From Pandoraea capi (GTDB lineage Bacteria > Pseudomonadota > Gammaproteobacteria > Burkholderiales > Burkholderiaceae): 64,000 bases of DNA. The translations under genes and the position numbers were made by a program. A model generated the notes under the pieces. It was given only the letters and a program-made list of their open reading frames with translations. It was not told the DNA's origin and searched no databases. Positions 1 to 6,995 of this stretch are shown here, one piece after another (position 1 is the first letter of the stretch; every line of letters starts with the position of its first letter). The stretch covers positions 248,001-312,000 of the forward strand of contig NZ_CABPRV010000005.1 in NCBI RefSeq assembly GCF_902459735.1, in the 5' to 3' direction.

Positions 1-605
1 TCGCGCTGGCTGCGGCAGTGGCTGCCGTCGCCGGAACGTGTCAGGCGCAAGACCTTTGGCTCGTGAGCGGTGAGCTCGCCGGCACGCACGCCACCGTCGA
101 AAGCGGCGTGGCTGTGGGGGTATCGGGCGCACTGGGCGTGAATCAGGCCGCCGGTGTGAACAACGCTCAGGCCAACAGCGCGCTCATTGCCAATGGCGGC
201 AGTGTGACGACCGGCATGTCGAGCACGAATCAACAGGCACTCGTCACGACGACGACGGGCGCCGCGAGCGCCGCAATTCAGGGCAACGCATTTTCAGGCA
301 CCTCGGGGCTGACGCAAGTCAACCAGGCGAGCGGTGCCGGCAATCTTCAACGCAACGCGACCGTCATTGTGACTGGCGATGCGTCTGGAGTGGCGAGCGT
401 ATCGGATACGGCACTATCCGCTGCGATCTCCAAGGGTGGCCCGGCTGGCCACCACAACCTCAACGATCAGTTCCGCACGGCGTCGATTTCCAGTGACGCC
501 TTCCGTGGAGCCAGTGGAGTGTTGCAGGTGAACCAGTCGGCTGGGATAGGCAATGTAACCGCAAATGTTTTTGTGCTCCGTCCCCCGGCGGGCACATCTT
601 TTTAA
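1..605 (+). CDS. Fap-type amyloid subunit-like secreted protein (5' end outside window)
   Basis: The open frame runs in from the window edge; the first visible residues (ALAAAVAAVAGTCQAQ) look like the end of a signal peptide, so the true start lies upstream and the GTG at 18 is internal. The mature part is rich in Gly, Ala, Asn, Gln and Ser and carries three copies of a motif of the form VNQxxGxxNxxxN (nt 138-179, 315-356, 526-567), for example GVNQAAGVNNAQANS. This resembles the imperfect repeats of Pseudomonas FapB/FapC, the nucleator and main subunit of functional amyloid in biofilms. It sits 30 bp upstream of a larger protein with the same kind of repeat and is followed by C39 peptidase and FapF-like genes, which supports a fibre-subunit role, probably the smaller FapB-like one. 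A generic secreted adhesin is the alternative. Homology is inferred from motif and context only. Confidence 0.65.
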   Translation, partial: ALAAAVAAVAGTCQAQDLWLVSGELAGTHATVESGVAVGVSGALGVNQAAGVNNAQANSALIANGGSVTTGMSSTNQQALVTTTTGAASAAIQGNAFSGTSGLTQVNQASGAGNLQRNATVIVTGDASGVASVSDTALSAAISKGGPAGHHNLNDQFRTASISSDAFRGASGVLQVNQSAGIGNVTANVFVLRPPAGTSF

Positions 606-635
606 CTGGGTAACTCTCTCGTCAAGGAGATGGTC

Positions 636-2015
636 ATGAAAACGAAAGCAATTGCAGCGGCTGCACTGCTGGTAGCAACGGGTACCGCCATGGCGTCGCC
701 CCATCACCAGCAATATAGCTTCTCGTTCATCGGCAACGAGACCAACGTTCTGAACCTGGTCGGTATTTTCGGTCTGATCGGGATTCGCGGCTGCGTCACG
801 GTGGATAACACCGGCAACGCCGTCGTGCAGAACAACCAGAAGGTCGACGTGCATCACGTGAACCTGACGGGCCCGCTGCTCGGCTCCTATGTCACGGGGC
901 ATGTGACGACGGGCGTCAATTCGAAGACCACCACGGTCTCGAACACGGGCGGCGCGTATCTGATCGGCGGCGCAACCACCACGTCGTATAACAACACGAC
1001 GTCGTGGGTGAATGCCGAGGCCAACGGCCACCTGAACACCAGCCAGTCGTTCCAGGCCGGTGCCGGGTATGTCGCAGGCCAGTCGAGCTCCGGTTCGGGC
1101 GGCTTCGTGACCGGTGGCGGGTATCAGTATTCCAACGTGGCAGCAGCCGGCGGCATCATCGGTGGCGGCATCATCCCGCTGCCGGGTGGCCTCGCACTGT
1201 ATGGCGGCTACATCGTTGGCAATGCCGGTGCCGGTCAAGGTTCCGCCTGGGGTGGCTACGCTTACGGCCAGCAGTCGCAAGCGGCCGGAGGCTTCCTCGC
1301 CGGTGGCTTCCTGAACACGCAGAAGAGCTTCGATGCCGCATTCCATGGTCTGTTCAACGCAGGTCAGGCTTCGGTCTCGAGCGAGTCGATCGCGGCGGGC
1401 GCACTGTGGGGCTTCTCGAACACCTACACGAAGGCCACCACGTGGCAGAAGGGCGCGCTCACGCTCCACGTCAATACGGCAACGTATCAGACGATGGGCG
1501 CAACGCTCGGCAACGGCGCGCTGGCTAACGCCAACGGCAACGTCGGTGTGAACGTGGCAGCAGGTGCCGATAACGCTCAGGCCAACAACGTCGCCATCGC
1601 CTCGCTCAACGCGCAGCCGGTGTATGCGTCGGCCCAGGTGTTCTCGAACCAGTCCTCGCAAGGCTCGGCCAAGATCTCGCAGTTCATGGTCAACGCCAGC
1701 GTGGGTGACGGTGCACTGGCAGGGGCGACCGGCAACGTCGGCGTGAACGTGGCTTCGGGTGTCGGCAACGTGCAGGGCAACAACCTGTCGGCGGCTGTCT
1801 CGCAAGGCGCGCATGGCTGGTACAAGGGCGGTGCTGCCAACTCGACGGCACAAACCGACCAGGTCGCAGGCATGAAGGCCTCGGGTGACTTCGTCGCCAA
1901 TGCAGCACTTGGCAACGGTGCCCTGCAATGGGCCAGCGGCAACGTGGGTGTGAACGTGGCAGCCGGTATCGGCAACGTTCAGGCCAACAGCCTCGCCATC
2001 TCGGCAATCAAGTGA
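636..2015 (+). CDS. fapC: FapC-like functional amyloid subunit with three repeats
   Basis: Predicted secreted protein of 459 residues with a signal peptide (MKTKAIAAAALLVATGTAMA, cleavage after A20). The ATG at 636 is chosen over the one at 630 because AAGGAG at 624-629 then has a 6-nt spacing. The C-terminal third holds three repeats beginning near residues 292, 357 and 426, each G-[ND]-G-A-L-x(4)-GNVGVNVA-[AS]-G-x(2)-N-x-Q-x-N, separated by about 65-69 residues. Residues 130-250 are a Gly/Ala/Tyr-rich segment (repeated GGY, GGG, AGG). Repeats plus linkers match the architecture of Pseudomonas FapC, the major amyloid fibre protein. Only one cysteine is apparent (GIRGCVT), so the C-terminal Cys-x-x-Cys reported for Pseudomonas Fap subunits is absent. 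A perfect terminator follows the stop, so this gene is probably expressed above those downstream. Confidence 0.7.
   Translation: MKTKAIAAAALLVATGTAMASPHHQQYSFSFIGNETNVLNLVGIFGLIGIRGCVTVDNTGNAVVQNNQKVDVHHVNLTGPLLGSYVTGHVTTGVNSKTTTVSNTGGAYLIGGATTTSYNNTTSWVNAEANGHLNTSQSFQAGAGYVAGQSSSGSGGFVTGGGYQYSNVAAAGGIIGGGIIPLPGGLALYGGYIVGNAGAGQGSAWGGYAYGQQSQAAGGFLAGGFLNTQKSFDAAFHGLFNAGQASVSSESIAAGALWGFSNTYTKATTWQKGALTLHVNTATYQTMGATLGNGALANANGNVGVNVAAGADNAQANNVAIASLNAQPVYASAQVFSNQSSQGSAKISQFMVNASVGDGALAGATGNVGVNVASGVGNVQGNNLSAAVSQGAHGWYKGGAANSTAQTDQVAGMKASGDFVANAALGNGALQWASGNVGVNVAAGIGNVQANSLAISAIK
1509..2012 (+). repeat. Three imperfect amyloid repeats inside the fapC-like gene
   Basis: Units start at about nt 1509, 1704 and 1911 and share the core GNVGVNVA[AS]G..N.Q.N. 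The nucleotide copies around the core (for example aacgtcggtgtgaacgtggc) are near-identical, suggesting tandem duplication or homogenisation of a roughly 65-70-codon unit. Confidence 0.75.
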
Positions 2016-2023
2016 TGTACCTG

Positions 2024-2054
2024 ACCGGTCCGGGGAATCCCGGACCGGTTTTTT
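2024..2054 (+). terminator. Intercistronic rho-independent terminator (fapC-like / fapD-like)
   Basis: ACCGGTCCGGG (2024-2034) and CCCGGACCGGT (2039-2049) form a perfect 11-bp GC-rich stem with a GAAT loop, followed by six T (2049-2054). It lies entirely in the 52-bp gap between the amyloid gene stop and the start of the downstream peptidase, so partial read-through would set subunit over peptidase ratio. Confidence 0.85.
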
Positions 2055-2067
2055 CATGAGGTGTGTC

Positions 2068-2778
2068 ATGAGCGATACGCGTCGTGCCGTCGTAAGGATC
2101 GCTACGGTTTGCGCTCTGGCGTGCGCAAGCGTGGCCGGGCACGCGCAGTATGCATCGGTGAACCTGGAGTCTTCGATCGGTGTACCGGCGGTCAAGAAGA
2201 TGCGCTCGTTCAAGTCGATGCACTACGTGAATCTGGTCCAGCAGGAATACGACTTCAGTTGTGGGTCCGCAGCGCTCTCGACGCTGCTGCGATACGGCTA
2301 CGGGATCAACATTCCCGAGACGGAAATGATTCAGCGAATGATGGCCTTCTCCAATCCGGACACGGTCATCAAGAACGGCTTCTCGATGCTCGACATGAAG
2401 AAATTCGTGGAGACGCTGGGACTCGAGGGGCGAGGTTTCAAAGTCGATGTCAGTGCGCTCTACGACCTGAAGATCCCGGTCATTGCGCTCATCGACGTCA
2501 ATGGATATCAGCACTTCGTGGTCGTAAAGGCGGCGAAGGACGGTCGGGTGTTCGTCTCCGATCCGGCGCTGGGCAATCGCATCATCGAGCAGGCCGATTT
2601 TGCCAAGCAGTGGAATGGCTTGGTGCTGGCGGTCATCGGCAAGCCGTTTCTGGAGGATTCACCGCTGCTCAAAGGCAATGAATCCCTGGCAGCCAAGTTG
2701 CGCGATGGCGCGCTGGCGACCGGGACGTCACCGACCCCGATGGTGGACTTCGGCATCATCCGGGCGGATCTGTTTTGA
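2068..2778 (+). CDS. fapD: Stand-alone C39 family cysteine peptidase (FapD-like)
   Basis: About 236 residues with an N-terminal hydrophobic leader ending near GHAQ, so probably periplasmic. The C39 signature is complete: catalytic Cys65 in QEYDFSCGSAALST, His149 in GYQHFVVVKA and Asp165 in VSDPALGNR (numbering from ATG 2068, preferred to ATG 2056 because GAGGTG precedes it). There is no ABC transporter membrane or ATPase domain, unlike bacteriocin exporters; a free C39 peptidase beside amyloid subunits is the hallmark of FapD, needed for Fap export and maturation. It follows the fapC-like gene after a terminator hairpin and is 12 bp upstream of the next secreted protein. A peptidase for another secreted substrate is possible, but the neighbours argue for Fap processing. 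Confidence 0.8.
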   Translation: MSDTRRAVVRIATVCALACASVAGHAQYASVNLESSIGVPAVKKMRSFKSMHYVNLVQQEYDFSCGSAALSTLLRYGYGINIPETEMIQRMMAFSNPDTVIKNGFSMLDMKKFVETLGLEGRGFKVDVSALYDLKIPVIALIDVNGYQHFVVVKAAKDGRVFVSDPALGNRIIEQADFAKQWNGLVLAVIGKPFLEDSPLLKGNESLAAKLRDGALATGTSPTPMVDFGIIRADLF

Positions 2779-2790
2779 GACCAGACCATC

Positions 2791-3540
2791 ATGAATCGAT
2801 ATGTCCCGATGTTGGCCATCCCGCTGTTCGCAAGCGCCGTGCCGGCATTTGCGTCGAGTGTGGTGCCCGAGAGCTGGACGCCTGTAAGCGATGAAGTCCT
2901 CTCGCATGCGACCGGCAAATACGCACAACAGAACATGATCACGGGCTTTCAGCTCGTCATGCAATCGCAGTGGCAGATGCCGACCGGGGCGAGCCTGATG
3001 GCGACCGGTGTGCTCGGCGTGACTAACGGTCAGGTCCAGACCGGTAGCTCGACGGCGATCATCCCCGGTGTCGTGAATGCGACGGCGCCCACGACGCAAT
3101 CGGTTACCGGTGGCGCCAACGTGCTGATGAACGGCGTCGCACAGATCACGCAGGTTGCAGGCGACGCAAACAACGCCATGAACAAAGCCATCATCCAGTA
3201 CGGCCCGGGCATATCGCTCGCGCTGCTGGTGCCGGTGAGCGGAAGCAGTACCAGCAGCTCGAACACCACGGTGGGCAATCTGAGCGCCAGCGTGGCGATC
3301 TCGTCGGCCGGCATGCAACTCGCGCTCAACACGCCGAACGGCAACCTCGGGCAGAGCATCGCCGGTGGTGCGGGCGGCGCGATGAACCAGATCATGCAGG
3401 TCGTGCAAGTCGCAGGCAACGCGCAACAGGTGATGAACACGTTGCAACTGAACTTGCAGACGGGCGCGCTCACGTCGGCAGGGCTGCGTCAGCTCGGTGT
3501 GCAGAACGCGATGGCGAACATGATCGCCGTGCGCCATTGA
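2791..3540 (+). CDS. Secreted protein with Fap-like motif pair (possible FapE counterpart)
   Basis: 249 residues with a signal peptide (MNRYVPMLAIPLFASAVPAFA). Not recognised as a named family. The mature protein is low in charge and rich in Ala, Asn, Gln, Ser, Thr and Met, and contains two related segments, ITQVAGDANNAMNKAII and VVQVAGNAQQVMNTLQL, that echo the N-x-A-x-G-x-x-N-x-x-x-N pattern of the upstream subunits but with Met in place of some small residues. No cysteine is visible. Its position between a FapD-like peptidase and a FapF-like porin is that of FapE, a minor extracellular component in Pseudomonas. A fibre-associated role is inferred; direct FapE homology is not demonstrated. 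Confidence 0.6.
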   Translation: MNRYVPMLAIPLFASAVPAFASSVVPESWTPVSDEVLSHATGKYAQQNMITGFQLVMQSQWQMPTGASLMATGVLGVTNGQVQTGSSTAIIPGVVNATAPTTQSVTGGANVLMNGVAQITQVAGDANNAMNKAIIQYGPGISLALLVPVSGSSTSSSNTTVGNLSASVAISSAGMQLALNTPNGNLGQSIAGGAGGAMNQIMQVVQVAGNAQQVMNTLQLNLQTGALTSAGLRQLGVQNAMANMIAVRH

Positions 3541-3864
3541 CGTTCAGACACGCGAGGTCACGACAGTCGTTGCCGTGGCCTCGGTGAAGGCAGTGATCGC
3601 AGTGGCAAGGGTAGTGACGTCGCCGGACTGTCGTGCATGAACGGTCCGGCTTCGGCCGCAACGTCCGACAGGACGCCATGACAACAAGACGTGGGGCGCC
3701 GCCGCAGAGCACTCGCGGCGTACAAGAAGGTGATGTCGGCAGAGCCCGGTCCGGGTTTCGCACGCATCACCCCGCAGTCGAGCAGCAAGGACAACCGTTG
3801 TTGGCAATACGTGTTTGTTGGATTGCGCGCGGACGCCCGTCCGCTTTTTCACCCGGGGGGGATC
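3541..3864 (+). other. 324-bp gap upstream of the FapF-like gene
   Basis: No convincing gene. It holds an imperfect hairpin CGAGGTCACG/CGTGGCCTCG (3553-3562 with 3574-3583) just after the preceding stop, with no T tract, and a terminator-like hairpin at its end (3829-3849). The frame of the FapF-like gene stays open upstream to 3691 but encodes an unconvincing Arg/Ala-rich stretch with no signal peptide, so it is treated as untranslated. Confidence 0.5.
3829..3849 (+). terminator. Terminator-like hairpin just before the FapF-like start
   Basis: GCGGAC (3829-3834) and GTCCGC (3839-3844) form a 6-bp stem with a GCCC loop followed by TTTTT (3845-3849). It is short but has the right layout, 15 nt before the start codon, repeating the arrangement upstream of the C39 peptidase. 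It may attenuate transcription into the outer-membrane gene. Confidence 0.5.
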
Positions 3865-5196
3865 ATGAACACTCACCGCTTTTTTCCCGTTGCCGCTATT
3901 CCGTTGGGGGTACTGCTTTTCACGCTATCGGCCCAGGCTCAGGAGCATACGAACCCATCGCCGGACAACCGTATCCAGATGTTGATGGATATGGTTGACC
4001 GGCAGCAGCGGGAAATTTCTTCTCTCAAGCAGCGCCTCACGGATATCGAGATGGCGCAACGCGGGCGCGGTCTGACCGCATGGGATACCGCGCAGATCGC
4101 GCAAGTCTCGCCAGGCGACGGCTCTGCCGCCGGCTCGGCAGGCACACCGGGCGGCGGCGCTGCCGGGGCTGCCGGGCCGACCTCGGCCACGCCGATCGGC
4201 GAGACGCAGCAAATGCAGAAGAGCGAGACCGAATCGCAGCGCACGCCGGCCGAAGAAGCCGTGGTGCAGGCGCAGCACGCCCCGCTGTTCGACCGCAAGC
4301 TCACCATCGACGCCGGTATCAGCTACAGCTACTACGATCGCCGTCAATTGGTGCTGAGCGGTTTTCTCGCGCTCGATGCCATCTTCCTCGGTCAGTTGAA
4401 CCTCGGCCAGACCAAGGCCAACGTGTGGACGTTCGACGTCAATACGCGTTACGGGATCACCGACCGGTTGAGCGTGTCGTTCGACGTGCCGTACCTGTAT
4501 CGCAACTCGGACTTCATTTCCGGGGGCGTAGGCGGTGCGGCGTCGTCGATCAGCGACATCAGCAAGAACTCCGCGAATATCGGCGACGTGAACGCGTCGA
4601 TCTACTACCAGCTCGTCAAGGAAAATGCGAACTGGCCCGATATCGTGGCGTCGTTGCGCGTGACGGCGCCGACCGGCACGTCGCCGTTCGGCATCAAGCT
4701 CGGCACGCCCGACCCGAGCAACAACAACCTGACCACCCCGTCGCGTCTGCCCACAGGGAACGGCATCTGGGCAATTACGGCGGGCCTGTCGTTCCTGCGG
4801 ACTTACGATCCGATCGTGTTGTTCGCGAACGTAGCCTACACGTACAACGTGGCGCGCTCGTTTGACGACATTTCGACCATCGAAGGCACCACGTCCCCTG
4901 CGAAGGTCAAGCTGGGCGATATCGTCCAGGTCGGCGCGGGGATGGCATTGGCGCTCAACGACAAGACGGCGCTGTCGATCTCGTATTCGACCGCGATTTC
5001 GCGGGCGACCAAGACGGCGTCGCCGGGCGCGGGCTGGACGACGGTGGCGGGCAGTACGACCAACGCGGCGTCGCTCAACTTCGGCATCAACTACGCCATC
5101 AACAAGCATTGGACCGTGAATGGGTACGTCAACGCCGGCATGTCGCCGGATGCACCGAACTATGTGATCGGTGTCCGCTTCCCGTACACGTTCTGA
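3865..5196 (+). CDS. fapF: Outer-membrane beta-barrel with N-terminal coiled coil (FapF-like)
   Basis: 443 residues from ATG 3865, chosen because it gives a clean signal peptide (ends LSAQAQ) behind a purine-rich GGGGGGGA. Residues 34-65 (MLMDMVDRQQREISSLKQRL) are a heptad-type coiled coil; residues 75-130 are a Gly/Ala/Pro/Gln linker; from about residue 146 the protein alternates hydrophobic and polar residues as in transmembrane beta strands and ends GVRFPYTF with the C-terminal Phe expected by the BAM machinery. Pseudomonas FapF has this layout: a trimerising coiled coil, a plug and a barrel through which amyloid subunits leave the cell. Cluster position supports the same role here. It also resembles phenol-degradation meta-pathway porins, the likely automatic annotation. 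Confidence 0.7.
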   Translation: MNTHRFFPVAAIPLGVLLFTLSAQAQEHTNPSPDNRIQMLMDMVDRQQREISSLKQRLTDIEMAQRGRGLTAWDTAQIAQVSPGDGSAAGSAGTPGGGAAGAAGPTSATPIGETQQMQKSETESQRTPAEEAVVQAQHAPLFDRKLTIDAGISYSYYDRRQLVLSGFLALDAIFLGQLNLGQTKANVWTFDVNTRYGITDRLSVSFDVPYLYRNSDFISGGVGGAASSISDISKNSANIGDVNASIYYQLVKENANWPDIVASLRVTAPTGTSPFGIKLGTPDPSNNNLTTPSRLPTGNGIWAITAGLSFLRTYDPIVLFANVAYTYNVARSFDDISTIEGTTSPAKVKLGDIVQVGAGMALALNDKTALSISYSTAISRATKTASPGAGWTTVAGSTTNAASLNFGINYAINKHWTVNGYVNAGMSPDAPNYVIGVRFPYTF

Positions 5197-5406
5197 ACGT
5201 AGCGAAAGCTGTCAACGGCGCTCGCCTCTCATCCGTAGGGGCGGCGCCTTTCAGTTCCGTCAGCAGGAACGGACGCGCGAGTGTTCTGCGTGCATCCGAC
5301 GTCGGTGCGCACAGGTTTTGGTGTTCTGAATGGGTAACGATGTGACCGAAGGGGCAGTGGGACTGCCGGGCGTTGGCGTTTGTCGCTGCGCTCGGTGGTG
5401 ATTCGG

Positions 5407-5877
5407 TTAGCGTGCGGGCCCGGCGTGCATGCGCGTGACGACAGCGCCGGCATTCGCCTTGAAGCTCGTCGCCATCATGGTCGCTGGCGCCTGTTGCACT
5501 TGCGGCATCGGCTGTGCCGCCGAGACGGCAACGATGGTGCGCGGCTGCGCTGAGGGCGGCAATGACCCTTGCGCCGGCTTAGGCGACGGGGCCGGCGGGA
5601 TCACTTCGTCCCACAAGCGAACGTTGTTGGCGGTGCTGATCGTTGTTGAATGGGCCGGCGCGAGGGCCGCAGGCGCGGCATTGCCGATACTGGTGACGAG
5701 GCTGCGTTGCAGGTTGGCGGCGTGCGTGCTGGCAAGCAGTGCATCGCTGACGGCTACCGGAACGGCGCCGCCAATGCCGCCAAGGCCATTGACATCGGCT
5801 TGTGCAGTATTCGCGATGCACGCAGCGGCAACACAAAATATCGCCCTGCGCGTCGTGCTGACGGTGATCTTGAACAT
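5407..5877 (-). CDS. Small secreted Ala/Pro-rich protein of unknown function
   Basis: 156 residues on the opposite strand, convergent with the FapF-like gene. A strong signal peptide (ends ANTAQA) is followed by a Gly-rich stretch, an Ala-rich helix-prone segment and a Pro/Ser/Gln/Ala-rich tail; no domain is recognised. The start ATG at 5877 is preceded on its strand by a G-rich stretch (plus-strand cccccccggg at about 5884-5893). Lying between the amyloid cluster and its probable regulator, it could be a periplasmic helper or a fibre-associated protein. FapA, a small periplasmic chaperone, is the obvious missing Fap component in this window, but no specific similarity to FapA was seen. Confidence 0.55.
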   Translation of the reverse strand: MFKITVSTTRRAIFCVAAACIANTAQADVNGLGGIGGAVPVAVSDALLASTHAANLQRSLVTSIGNAAPAALAPAHSTTISTANNVRLWDEVIPPAPSPKPAQGSLPPSAQPRTIVAVSAAQPMPQVQQAPATMMATSFKANAGAVVTRMHAGPAR

Positions 5878-6269
5878 GGCCTGCCCCCCCGGGCTCCGTG
5901 TGCTGTCCTCACAGACTTTTTGTATTCTATTGCGCGATTCGAGAAAGGAAAGGGAAAAAGTAATAGCGGAATCTCCGAAAATTGAGTAAATAATTTACGC
6001 AGATTGCGGTTTGTCGCGCTCAGGCAACAAGCACAGGCATTCGTGACGGGCGGACTCGCCGTTGCGCGGGCTTCACGCATAAACTGCCTTGAAAGCAAGG
6101 CGACGCCTTATGCGTAAAGTATGGCGAGAACTGGAGGGTTTCTTCGGTTTTTGTCCGGGTGAGATGCGACGTGCATGTCACCGGCATATCAATAAGGCCA
6201 AAGGCGCGGTAAGCATGACAAAAATGGGGCGGCGGCGCGGGGGTGCCGACCGGAATATCAGGGGAAATC
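5878..6269. other. 392-bp divergent intergenic region with a long inverted repeat
   Basis: It separates the leftward secreted-protein gene from the rightward LuxR gene and is much more AT-rich (5920-6000) than its surroundings. On the minus strand TAGAAT (plus 5925-5930) is a possible -10 for the small secreted protein, with no good -35. The inverted repeat at 6071-6118 is listed separately. No gene is seen. Confidence 0.45.
6071..6118. repeat. 48-bp imperfect inverted repeat
   Basis: Outer arms CTTCACGCATAA (6071-6082) and TTATGCGTAAAG (6107-6118) match at 11 of 12 positions; inner arms GCCTTG (6086-6091) and CAAGGC (6096-6101) form a stem with an AAAG loop. It could be a regulator operator or a structured RNA element upstream of the LuxR gene. 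There is no T tract, so a terminator is unlikely. Confidence 0.6.
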
Positions 6270-6995
6270 ATGCGTGTGCTGGTCGTAGGTGAGGCTGCCA
6301 CCTGGCTGAGCGGCCTGCAAATCGCATTGCAAACCGATGCGAACGTGACACCACCGGTCTTGCGGCACGTGGAGCATGTGACCACGCAGGACTGGGTCTG
6401 GCTGCGCGAGTTGCCGTCGCGTCGCGCGCTGGTGCTCGATGAGTCTGTCGCGCGGACGCCGGCGGTCGACACGCTGTGCGCGATTGCCGCCGAATGCGTG
6501 CCGCCTGTGCCCGTCGTCGTCGTAGGCGATGCGGGTTTTCCCGACGAGATCATTCGGTGGTTGCAGGCTGGCGTGGCCGCCTGCCTGCCGTGGCCCAATT
6601 CCGTCGCGCGTGTTCGCTCCGTGTTCGATCTGGCATTCTCGGGCGGTCGTTTCGTGCCGGAAGAGGCGCTCTCAACGCTGCTGGTGCTCTGGCGGCAAGA
6701 GGCGCTGGGCGACGCATTGCCGCTATCTCGCCTGCCGGTGTTTCCGCTTGGGGGCGACAAGGCGACGCAGCTTGCTGAATCGGCGCTGCTCGGCATCTCT
6801 CAACGGCAATATGAAATTCTGGCGCTCCTCTCACGCGGGCTGTCCATCAAGACGATCTGCCAGCAACTGGTGATCTCCGAGGGCACGGCGAAGACCCATG
6901 TGTCTGCGCTGTACCGGCGACTCGGCGCGCGCAATCGCGGTGAGGCAATTTATATTGCAGCGCAGCGCGGTGCGCGCCATCTGTTCGAGACCTGA
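6270..6995 (+). CDS. LuxR/NarL-type transcriptional regulator with degenerate receiver
   Basis: 241 residues from ATG 6270, preceded by AGGGGA. Residues 1-130 have the alternating beta/alpha pattern of a response-regulator receiver, with a possible Asp57 (RALVLDESV), but the N-terminal acidic pair is replaced by V-V-G-E and the conserved Lys by Trp108 (ACLPWPNS), so normal phosphorylation is doubtful. Residues 175-231 are a canonical GerE/LuxR helix-turn-helix (SQRQYEILALLSRGLSIKTI, then SEGTAKTHVSALYRRLG). It lies at the edge of the Fap-like cluster with no histidine kinase beside it, and the next operon is functionally unrelated, so control of the amyloid genes or of the adjacent secreted protein is the best guess. 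DNA binding is well supported; the target is inference. Confidence 0.8.
   Translation: MRVLVVGEAATWLSGLQIALQTDANVTPPVLRHVEHVTTQDWVWLRELPSRRALVLDESVARTPAVDTLCAIAAECVPPVPVVVVGDAGFPDEIIRWLQAGVAACLPWPNSVARVRSVFDLAFSGGRFVPEEALSTLLVLWRQEALGDALPLSRLPVFPLGGDKATQLAESALLGISQRQYEILALLSRGLSIKTICQQLVISEGTAKTHVSALYRRLGARNRGEAIYIAAQRGARHLFET

Follow-up and report, generated by a model that had tools for sequence, protein, structure and literature searches.

A probable fap functional-amyloid operon of Pandoraea and a candidate FapD recognition motif in FapE

Introduction

Fap functional-amyloid systems occur in Beta-, Gamma- and Deltaproteobacteria, and passages of Dueholm et al. 2013 (PMC3792158) describe the gene order fapABCDEF and three repeats as the rule. 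Excerpts of Rouse et al. 2018 (PMC6173800) already list Pandoraea sp. as Fap-encoding and name Pandoraea among the genera with lung-infection isolates. Here we describe a locus at the start of a 64,000-base stretch of the 5.85-Mb genome of Pandoraea capi (contig NZ_CABPRV010000005.1, positions 248,001 to 312,000, or G000:C5:248001-312000 in our numbering; hereafter the window) that probably holds a complete fap operon. Because the Fap order and repeats had been described before and Pandoraea sp. had been named, the operon by itself adds one more example to a known kind of amyloid system. Its comparison with other loci names residues of FapE as a candidate target of the FapD peptidase, within a motif present in all 35 FapE proteins aligned from Pandoraea to Pseudomonas-like bacteria. 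It also points to a family of unannotated secreted proteins, here called X1, that is tied to fap-type loci and seems worth including in laboratory reconstructions of such systems.

According to excerpts of Rouse et al. 2017 (PMC5557850), the FapD cysteine is needed for secretion, FapC secretion being lost with FapD C38A, and FapE alone among the Fap proteins undergoes complete N-terminal processing. The same excerpts call the target of FapD unclear, since no canonical C39 sequence occurs in Fap proteins, and consider an alternative recognition sequence possible.

Results and Discussion

Gene content and identity of the operon

NCBIfam profile searches of the window and of the 12 kb preceding it (read as L002, in which L002:12001 is window position 1) recovered fapABCDEF on one strand and in canonical order (Table 1). 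Both fapA and the start of fapB lie upstream of the window, fapB beginning 31 bases before window base 1, and a gap of 324 bases separates fapE from fapF. The original prediction, made from the letters of the window, had proposed the order B-C-D-E-F with fapA possibly beyond position 1; the models match in exactly that order, and fapA was located just upstream. For each of the six proteins the best NCBIfam family is its own Fap model, and judged by the E-values these gene identities are far beyond chance.

Table 1. Features of the Pandoraea fap locus, in genomic order; plain numbers are window positions
Feature	Coordinates	Strand	Location	Support
sigma54 activator, VpsR domain	L002:8831-10189	+	upstream of window	
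-24/-12 promoter, TGGCACGgaagTCGCT	starts 45 bases before X1 start		upstream of window	
X1, small secreted protein, first operon gene	L002:10895-11461	+	upstream of window	
fapA	L002:11467-11973	+	upstream of window	NCBIfam E 3.6e-5
fapB, predicted minor amyloid subunit, 211 residues	L002:11970-12605	+	window to 605	NF058557 E 2.9e-23
fapC, predicted main amyloid subunit, 461 residues	630..2015	+	window	NF058558 E 4.5e-18
fapD, C39 peptidase	2056..2778	+	window	NF058616 E 9.8e-59; PF03412 E 2.3e-26
fapE, predicted minor secreted subunit	2791..3540	+	window	NF058559 E 1.7e-14
fapF, predicted outer-membrane beta-barrel transporter	3865..5196	+	window	NF058560 E 3.8e-112
X2, small secreted protein, convergent to fapF	5407..5877	-	window	BLASTP to X1 E 4e-5
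LuxR/NarL-type regulator	6243..6995	+	window	GerE E 8.6e-13; CsgD model E 6.9e-10, helix-turn-helix part only

What weighs against the assignment is that all six Fap matches score under the curated NCBIfam cut-offs. Our comparison loci comprised 16 stretches found in 15 genomes out of a class-wide draw of 369, Aeromonas caviae and the relatives G035 and G044, together with 12 stretches of a Pseudomonas-like family, a group picked by an RsmY match above the gathering score (G222), 59 genomes being searched. The FapE cut-off was passed in none of the 369 class-wide genomes, 16 of which had a match, and in all 12 FapE-bearing Pseudomonas-like genomes. Since every class-wide FapE falls short (16/16) and every Pseudomonas-like one passes (12/12), the cut-offs mark the Pseudomonas-like group. 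The system had been called divergent in advance; this stands when it is set against Pseudomonas, but not against FapE across the class.

The Pandoraea locus shares with Fap of Pseudomonas the gene order, the repeats, the C39 peptidase, the FapF barrel, a -24/-12 promoter and a nearby sigma54 activator with a VpsR domain. It differs in its lower profile scores, in a FapC that lacks CxxC and carries a long glycine-rich N-terminal part, in the additional X1 and X2, in a LuxR-type neighbour, and in having the activator upstream rather than behind fapF. The Fap loci of other Beta- and Gammaproteobacteria show the same order, the same level of divergence and the usual absence of CxxC, and some of them possess an X1-type gene; X2, in contrast, was found only in Pandoraea loci of the sets searched.

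As anticipated for a stand-alone C39 peptidase with a complete Cys-His-Asp set, FapD has Cys69, His153 and Asp169, which we take to be its catalytic residues, and its N-terminus looks hydrophobic and signal-like by eye. Residues 143-443 of FapF match the sequences of the FapF barrels solved as 5o65, 5o67 and 5o68 (phmmer E 3.9e-80 for 5o65, a trimeric 12-stranded barrel), and the N-terminal segment appears coiled-coil-like by eye. These two proteins could also belong to a Fil-type or COG4313-type secretion system with a cargo other than amyloid, as FapD matches the FilB model (E 1.3e-37) and FapF the FilC model (E 1.6e-12), and FapD/FapF-like pairs do exist where neither fapB nor fapC is matched (L118-L121). 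Fil-type C39/COG4313 pairs (pilus_FilB, pilus_FilC) likewise combine a FapD-like C39 peptidase with a FapF-like barrel and, by eye, with secreted neighbours bearing RGG motifs. However, the FapD and FapF models match the Pandoraea proteins far better (9.8e-59 and 3.8e-112), no FapB or FapC match is seen in the Fil-type stretches, and here fapB and fapC, with three repeats each, are present along with fapE and fapA, all of which makes a Fil-type system highly improbable. We put the probability that X1-fapABCDEF, followed by the convergent X2, forms a complete functional-amyloid operon of the Fap type with a predicted role in fibre formation at roughly 0.88.

By analogy with Pseudomonas, FapA to FapF would pass the inner membrane by Sec and FapF would provide the outer-membrane pore. 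FapC would form the body of the fibre, with FapB and FapE as minor parts, and FapD would serve as a periplasmic cysteine peptidase needed for secretion.

The FapD/FapF-like pairs of L118-L121 and L197, whose stretches match neither fapB nor fapC, perhaps handle another class of cargo with the same machinery. A VpsR-type activator occurs in three of these five stretches (L118, L119, L197), and secreted neighbour proteins with RGG motifs were noted by eye in L118-L121.

Subunits and distribution

The two secreted proteins expected to carry three repeats each do so, the repeats being of the G-x-x-N-x-Q type: VNQAAGVNNAQAN, VNQASGAGNLQRN and VNQSAGIGNVTAN in FapB, and GVNVAAGADNAQAN (residue 306), GVNVASGVGNVQGN (371) and GVNVAAGIGNVQAN (440) in FapC, where all three fall within about the last 175 residues. 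This part of FapC (residues 288-458) finds the FapC of 9nqd and that of 9u4u with an E-value of 6.5e-13. Given these matches of FapF and FapC, a lack of profile similarity to the Fap families, named in advance as a refuting outcome, was not what was observed. The glycine-rich N-terminal part ahead of the repeats (about 260 residues, approximately 24-287) gave no match in the PDB. Should the repeats make up the core of the fibre, the glycine-rich part would stand exposed on it. A part of this length could not fit into the FapC frame of the deep-branching G015, with 266 residues, or into that of the relative G035, with 284.

The single cysteine that had been singled out in FapC is indeed there, as C55, but the lack of CxxC is not unusual, since CxxC occurs in only 4 of the 22 loci outside the Pseudomonas-like family, compared with 10 of 11 inside (the twelfth locus was left out, its FapC not having been told apart from FapB; a 17-locus subset outside the family gave 2). 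Loss of CxxC as a special feature of Pandoraea FapC was rejected on the same count. Likewise, the third secreted protein, described beforehand as unusual, is FapE. The oddities listed in the original prediction are thus mostly normal for Fap, the extra small gene being the exception.

A betaproteobacterial host had been proposed, and this proved correct: a FapF scan of named genomes returned 17 loci, all from Pandoraea, with P. anhela 100% identical in the best segment and 99.5% over the whole protein. When 61 genomes were searched (our own and 60 relatives), FapF was present in 31 of the 32 genomes of the genus, our own among them, and the fap locus was syntenic across the genus. The one same-genus genome with neither a fapF nor an X1 match, G003, is a reduced genome of 1.2 Mb that also lacks the orphan repeat protein described below; in G030 only part of FapF was found, at a contig end.

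A leader-like motif in FapE

We aligned 35 FapE proteins, from the 16 class-wide stretches, G035, G044, A. caviae, the 12 Pseudomonas-like stretches and four Pandoraea. All 35 contain an N-terminal block close to [LVI]-x-D-x-x-L-x-x-x-R-G-[RK]-[YF], which by eye sits shortly after the signal peptide. In this locus it reads VSDEVLSHATGKY (residues 32-44, about bases 2884-2922), and other examples are IELKDQELAQLRGKY, VEISDAELSQLRGRY and PVSDEVLSHATGKY. The arginine is kept in 31 proteins (it is T in the four Pandoraea) and the glycine in all 35, as is the closing pair of R or K followed by Y or F.

The double-glycine leader of C39 peptidases has the consensus LSxxELxxIxGG. FapE shares its hydrophobic and acidic pattern ahead of the cut, with D in 30 of 35 proteins and L or M in every one, but has no glycine-glycine at the position of the cut, where G-R or G-K stands in every case. 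A true double glycine at the motif, VADARLAAMRGGF, does occur in a FapE-like protein of L118, a FapD/FapF locus without fapB and fapC; this protein matches the FapE profile at E 1.6e-6 and aligns across the motif block. When the X1 and FapE profiles were compared, they aligned at the motif alone (22 columns, E 1.4e-5, probability 80), while six other profiles used as a control gave E-values from 0.01 to 0.32. A motif expression matched 34 of the 35 FapE proteins.

These likenesses make the FapE motif the best candidate for the FapD site, and FapD may recognise and process it as a leader-like element near the start of mature FapE. X1, and perhaps X2, would then be further clients of FapD or competitors of FapE for it. 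In its fullest form, this proposal holds that FapD both recognises and cuts the motif in every Fap system and that X1 and X2 form an unnamed seventh Fap class with the same site, made first from the operon, which would compete with or license the processing of FapE and so time the opening of FapF. We put it forward tentatively and rate it somewhat below an even chance.

Several points weigh against it. Excerpts of PMC5557850 report that FapE peptides are absent over about the first 70 residues in Pseudomonas, and a single cut within the motif (residues 32-44 here) would not explain a gap of that length. The motif expressions were written after FapE had been viewed, and their failure to hit any of 45 background open reading frames (ORFs; 18,659 residues) was not a blind result; a looser expression also matched 1 of 34 FapC and 1 of 33 activators. 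Other secreted RGG proteins of FapD/FapF loci (L119, L120, L121, L158) gave no credible match to the FapE profile. Finally, none of 24 X2 sequences matched the motif expressions, the glycine-basic end being absent in most rows, although V-S-D-x-L-L is kept in most of them.

The motif of FapE and X1 might instead be a diverged half of a Fap repeat, in which case the two proteins would act as mini-subunits with a capping or nucleating role, left untouched by FapD. The repeats of Pandoraea FapC begin D/N-x-A-L-x-x-x-x-G, reading DGALAGATGN with the same spacing from D to G, X1 ends in a Fap-repeat-like GxxNxQ, and X1 aligns weakly to the FapB repeat (E 0.01). Yet the N-terminal profile of FapE finds X1 at E 2.1e-5 as against 0.2 for FapB and 0.42 for FapC, and the R-G-[RK]-[YF] end was not seen in the repeats. 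The position of the motif just behind the signal peptide and the RGG of the FapE-like protein speak against a half repeat as well; we regard this origin as unlikely, at about one chance in four.

Slightly less likely again is that FapD cuts the linker of FapF behind its coiled coil, which Rouse et al. also considered, and that the motif of FapE does no more than target it to FapF. A similar motif does stand behind the coiled coil in some FapF proteins (L141 PTDRELGHLRGK, L140 VPDSELERLAGRG, L113 LNELEMRQTRGRG), and Pandoraea FapF has LTDIEMAQRGRG, in which the spacing is one shorter. The motif expression, however, matched only 2 of 35 FapF, the N-termini of the 12 Pseudomonas-like FapF lack the motif by eye, and the profiles of FapE and FapF compare weakly (E 0.027). 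The motif was rejected as a general feature of FapF, in which it is confined to a minority. FapA was also dropped as a further carrier (ELSDADYASMESG and similar), its profile support being weak (E 0.0022). No description of the FapE motif or of X1 was found in the literature listings and paper excerpts searched.

X1 and X2

The extra convergent small gene noted in the original prediction, X2, proved to be a real addition to the known fap operon, and it has a paralogue, X1, which is the first gene of the operon. The family is unnamed. The two secreted proteins match each other over their ANxVxLWDE region, with LWDE at residue 88 of X2. No convincing Pfam or NCBIfam family was found in the four sequences scanned, X2 having none up to E 1; one relative touches DUF6160 at E 0.01. 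X1 is present in the same 31 Pandoraea genomes as FapF, and X2 in every Pandoraea stretch that extends beyond fapF.

Outside Pandoraea and the Pseudomonas-like family, 7 of 19 stretches have an X1-type gene upstream of the fap subunit genes (L114, L139, L140, L142, L143, L145 and L149, some of them by the LWD[ES] motif only), as against none of the 12 Pseudomonas-like stretches. An alignment of ten X1 sequences shows invariant V-x-LWD and G-x-x-N-x-Q, together with a D-x-x-L-x-x-x-R-G block whose D and G are nearly invariant. A profile of these ten was run on the 369 genomes, no more than 11 first-look candidates being scored in each, and gave at least 12 matches in 10 genomes. One of 12 matches was the N-terminus of FapE itself (G200), and seven, including our own locus, were already in the model. 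The remaining four lay outside the model and provide an independent test. All adjoin fap-type genes: FapB, FapC and FapD in L194; the activator and FapB in L195; the activator, FapB, FapC and FapF in L196; and only the activator, FapD and FapF in L197. Since the seven model loci and the four independent matches all lie beside such genes, X1 is tied to fap-type loci in 11 of 11 cases among the matches scored.

That X1 might substitute for FapA was considered and dropped, as fapA-like ORFs that the profile had missed were seen by eye beside X1 in L140 and other loci. Because divergent fapA ORFs escaped the profile, counts of fapA absence are unreliable.

Regulation

In P. fluorescens PF07, according to excerpts of PMC9207406, RpoN and BrfA drive fap from a -24/-12 promoter; brfA is the reverse gene behind fapF and encodes an RpoN-dependent fap activator that senses cyclic di-GMP (c-di-GMP; PMC9207406 and PMC13101488, in part). 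In Pandoraea, 22 of 24 distinct genomes (a further row, L108, repeats L068) have a -24/-12 site that starts at -44 or -45 relative to X1 and agrees with the consensus at 10 to 11 of 12 positions; in the other two (L110, L117) the X1 match began inside the gene, which put the upstream region in the wrong place. In 500 mono-nucleotide shuffles the score of the site was reached 0 to 5 times. The activator next to fap has Sigma54_activat and VpsR domains and contains GAFTGA. Since RpoN and BrfA control fap in PF07, and a -24/-12 promoter and a sigma54 activator lie beside fap here, the same control is suggested for Pandoraea: RpoN and the activator would switch the operon on, probably at high c-di-GMP.

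A VpsR-type activator is found in the fap stretch in 15 of 16 class-wide cases (the exception, L141, has no fapB or fapC seen) and in 11 of 12 Pseudomonas-like ones, and GAFTGA in 29 of 33 such activators. Four activators beside other fap loci were checked and have both domains; two of them are Pseudomonas-like and lie convergent behind fapF. A scan for -24/-12 sites ahead of fap gave a mixed picture. Outside the Pseudomonas-like family, a site whose score was reached by no more than 9 of 200 shuffles was present in 10 of 18 loci and absent from the other 8; this level was attained by 3 of the 12 Pseudomonas-like loci, the other 9 having at least 13 of 200 shuffles that reached the score. One of the 10 and one of the 3 qualifying sites lay inside an ORF. 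The scan argues neither for nor against the published promoter in the Pseudomonas-like loci. No conserved sigma54 site was seen upstream of X2, of the LuxR gene or of the orphan repeat protein.

Other repeat proteins and the flanking regulator

Far from the operon, at G000:C7:49163-49591, lies an orphan gene for a secreted protein of 143 residues with two FapC-like repeats, possibly an extra fibre subunit. It is kept in 27 of the 32 genomes of the genus, ours among them, and was not found in G003, G015, G024, G026 and G030. In L196, a FapB-like protein (L196:8153-8866) bears VISDNAMSNVRGA before its repeats.

The LuxR/NarL-type gene that flanks the locus starts at GTG 6243 or, by eye, at ATG 6270. 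A regulator of this type adjoins fap throughout Pandoraea, with identity as low as 41%.

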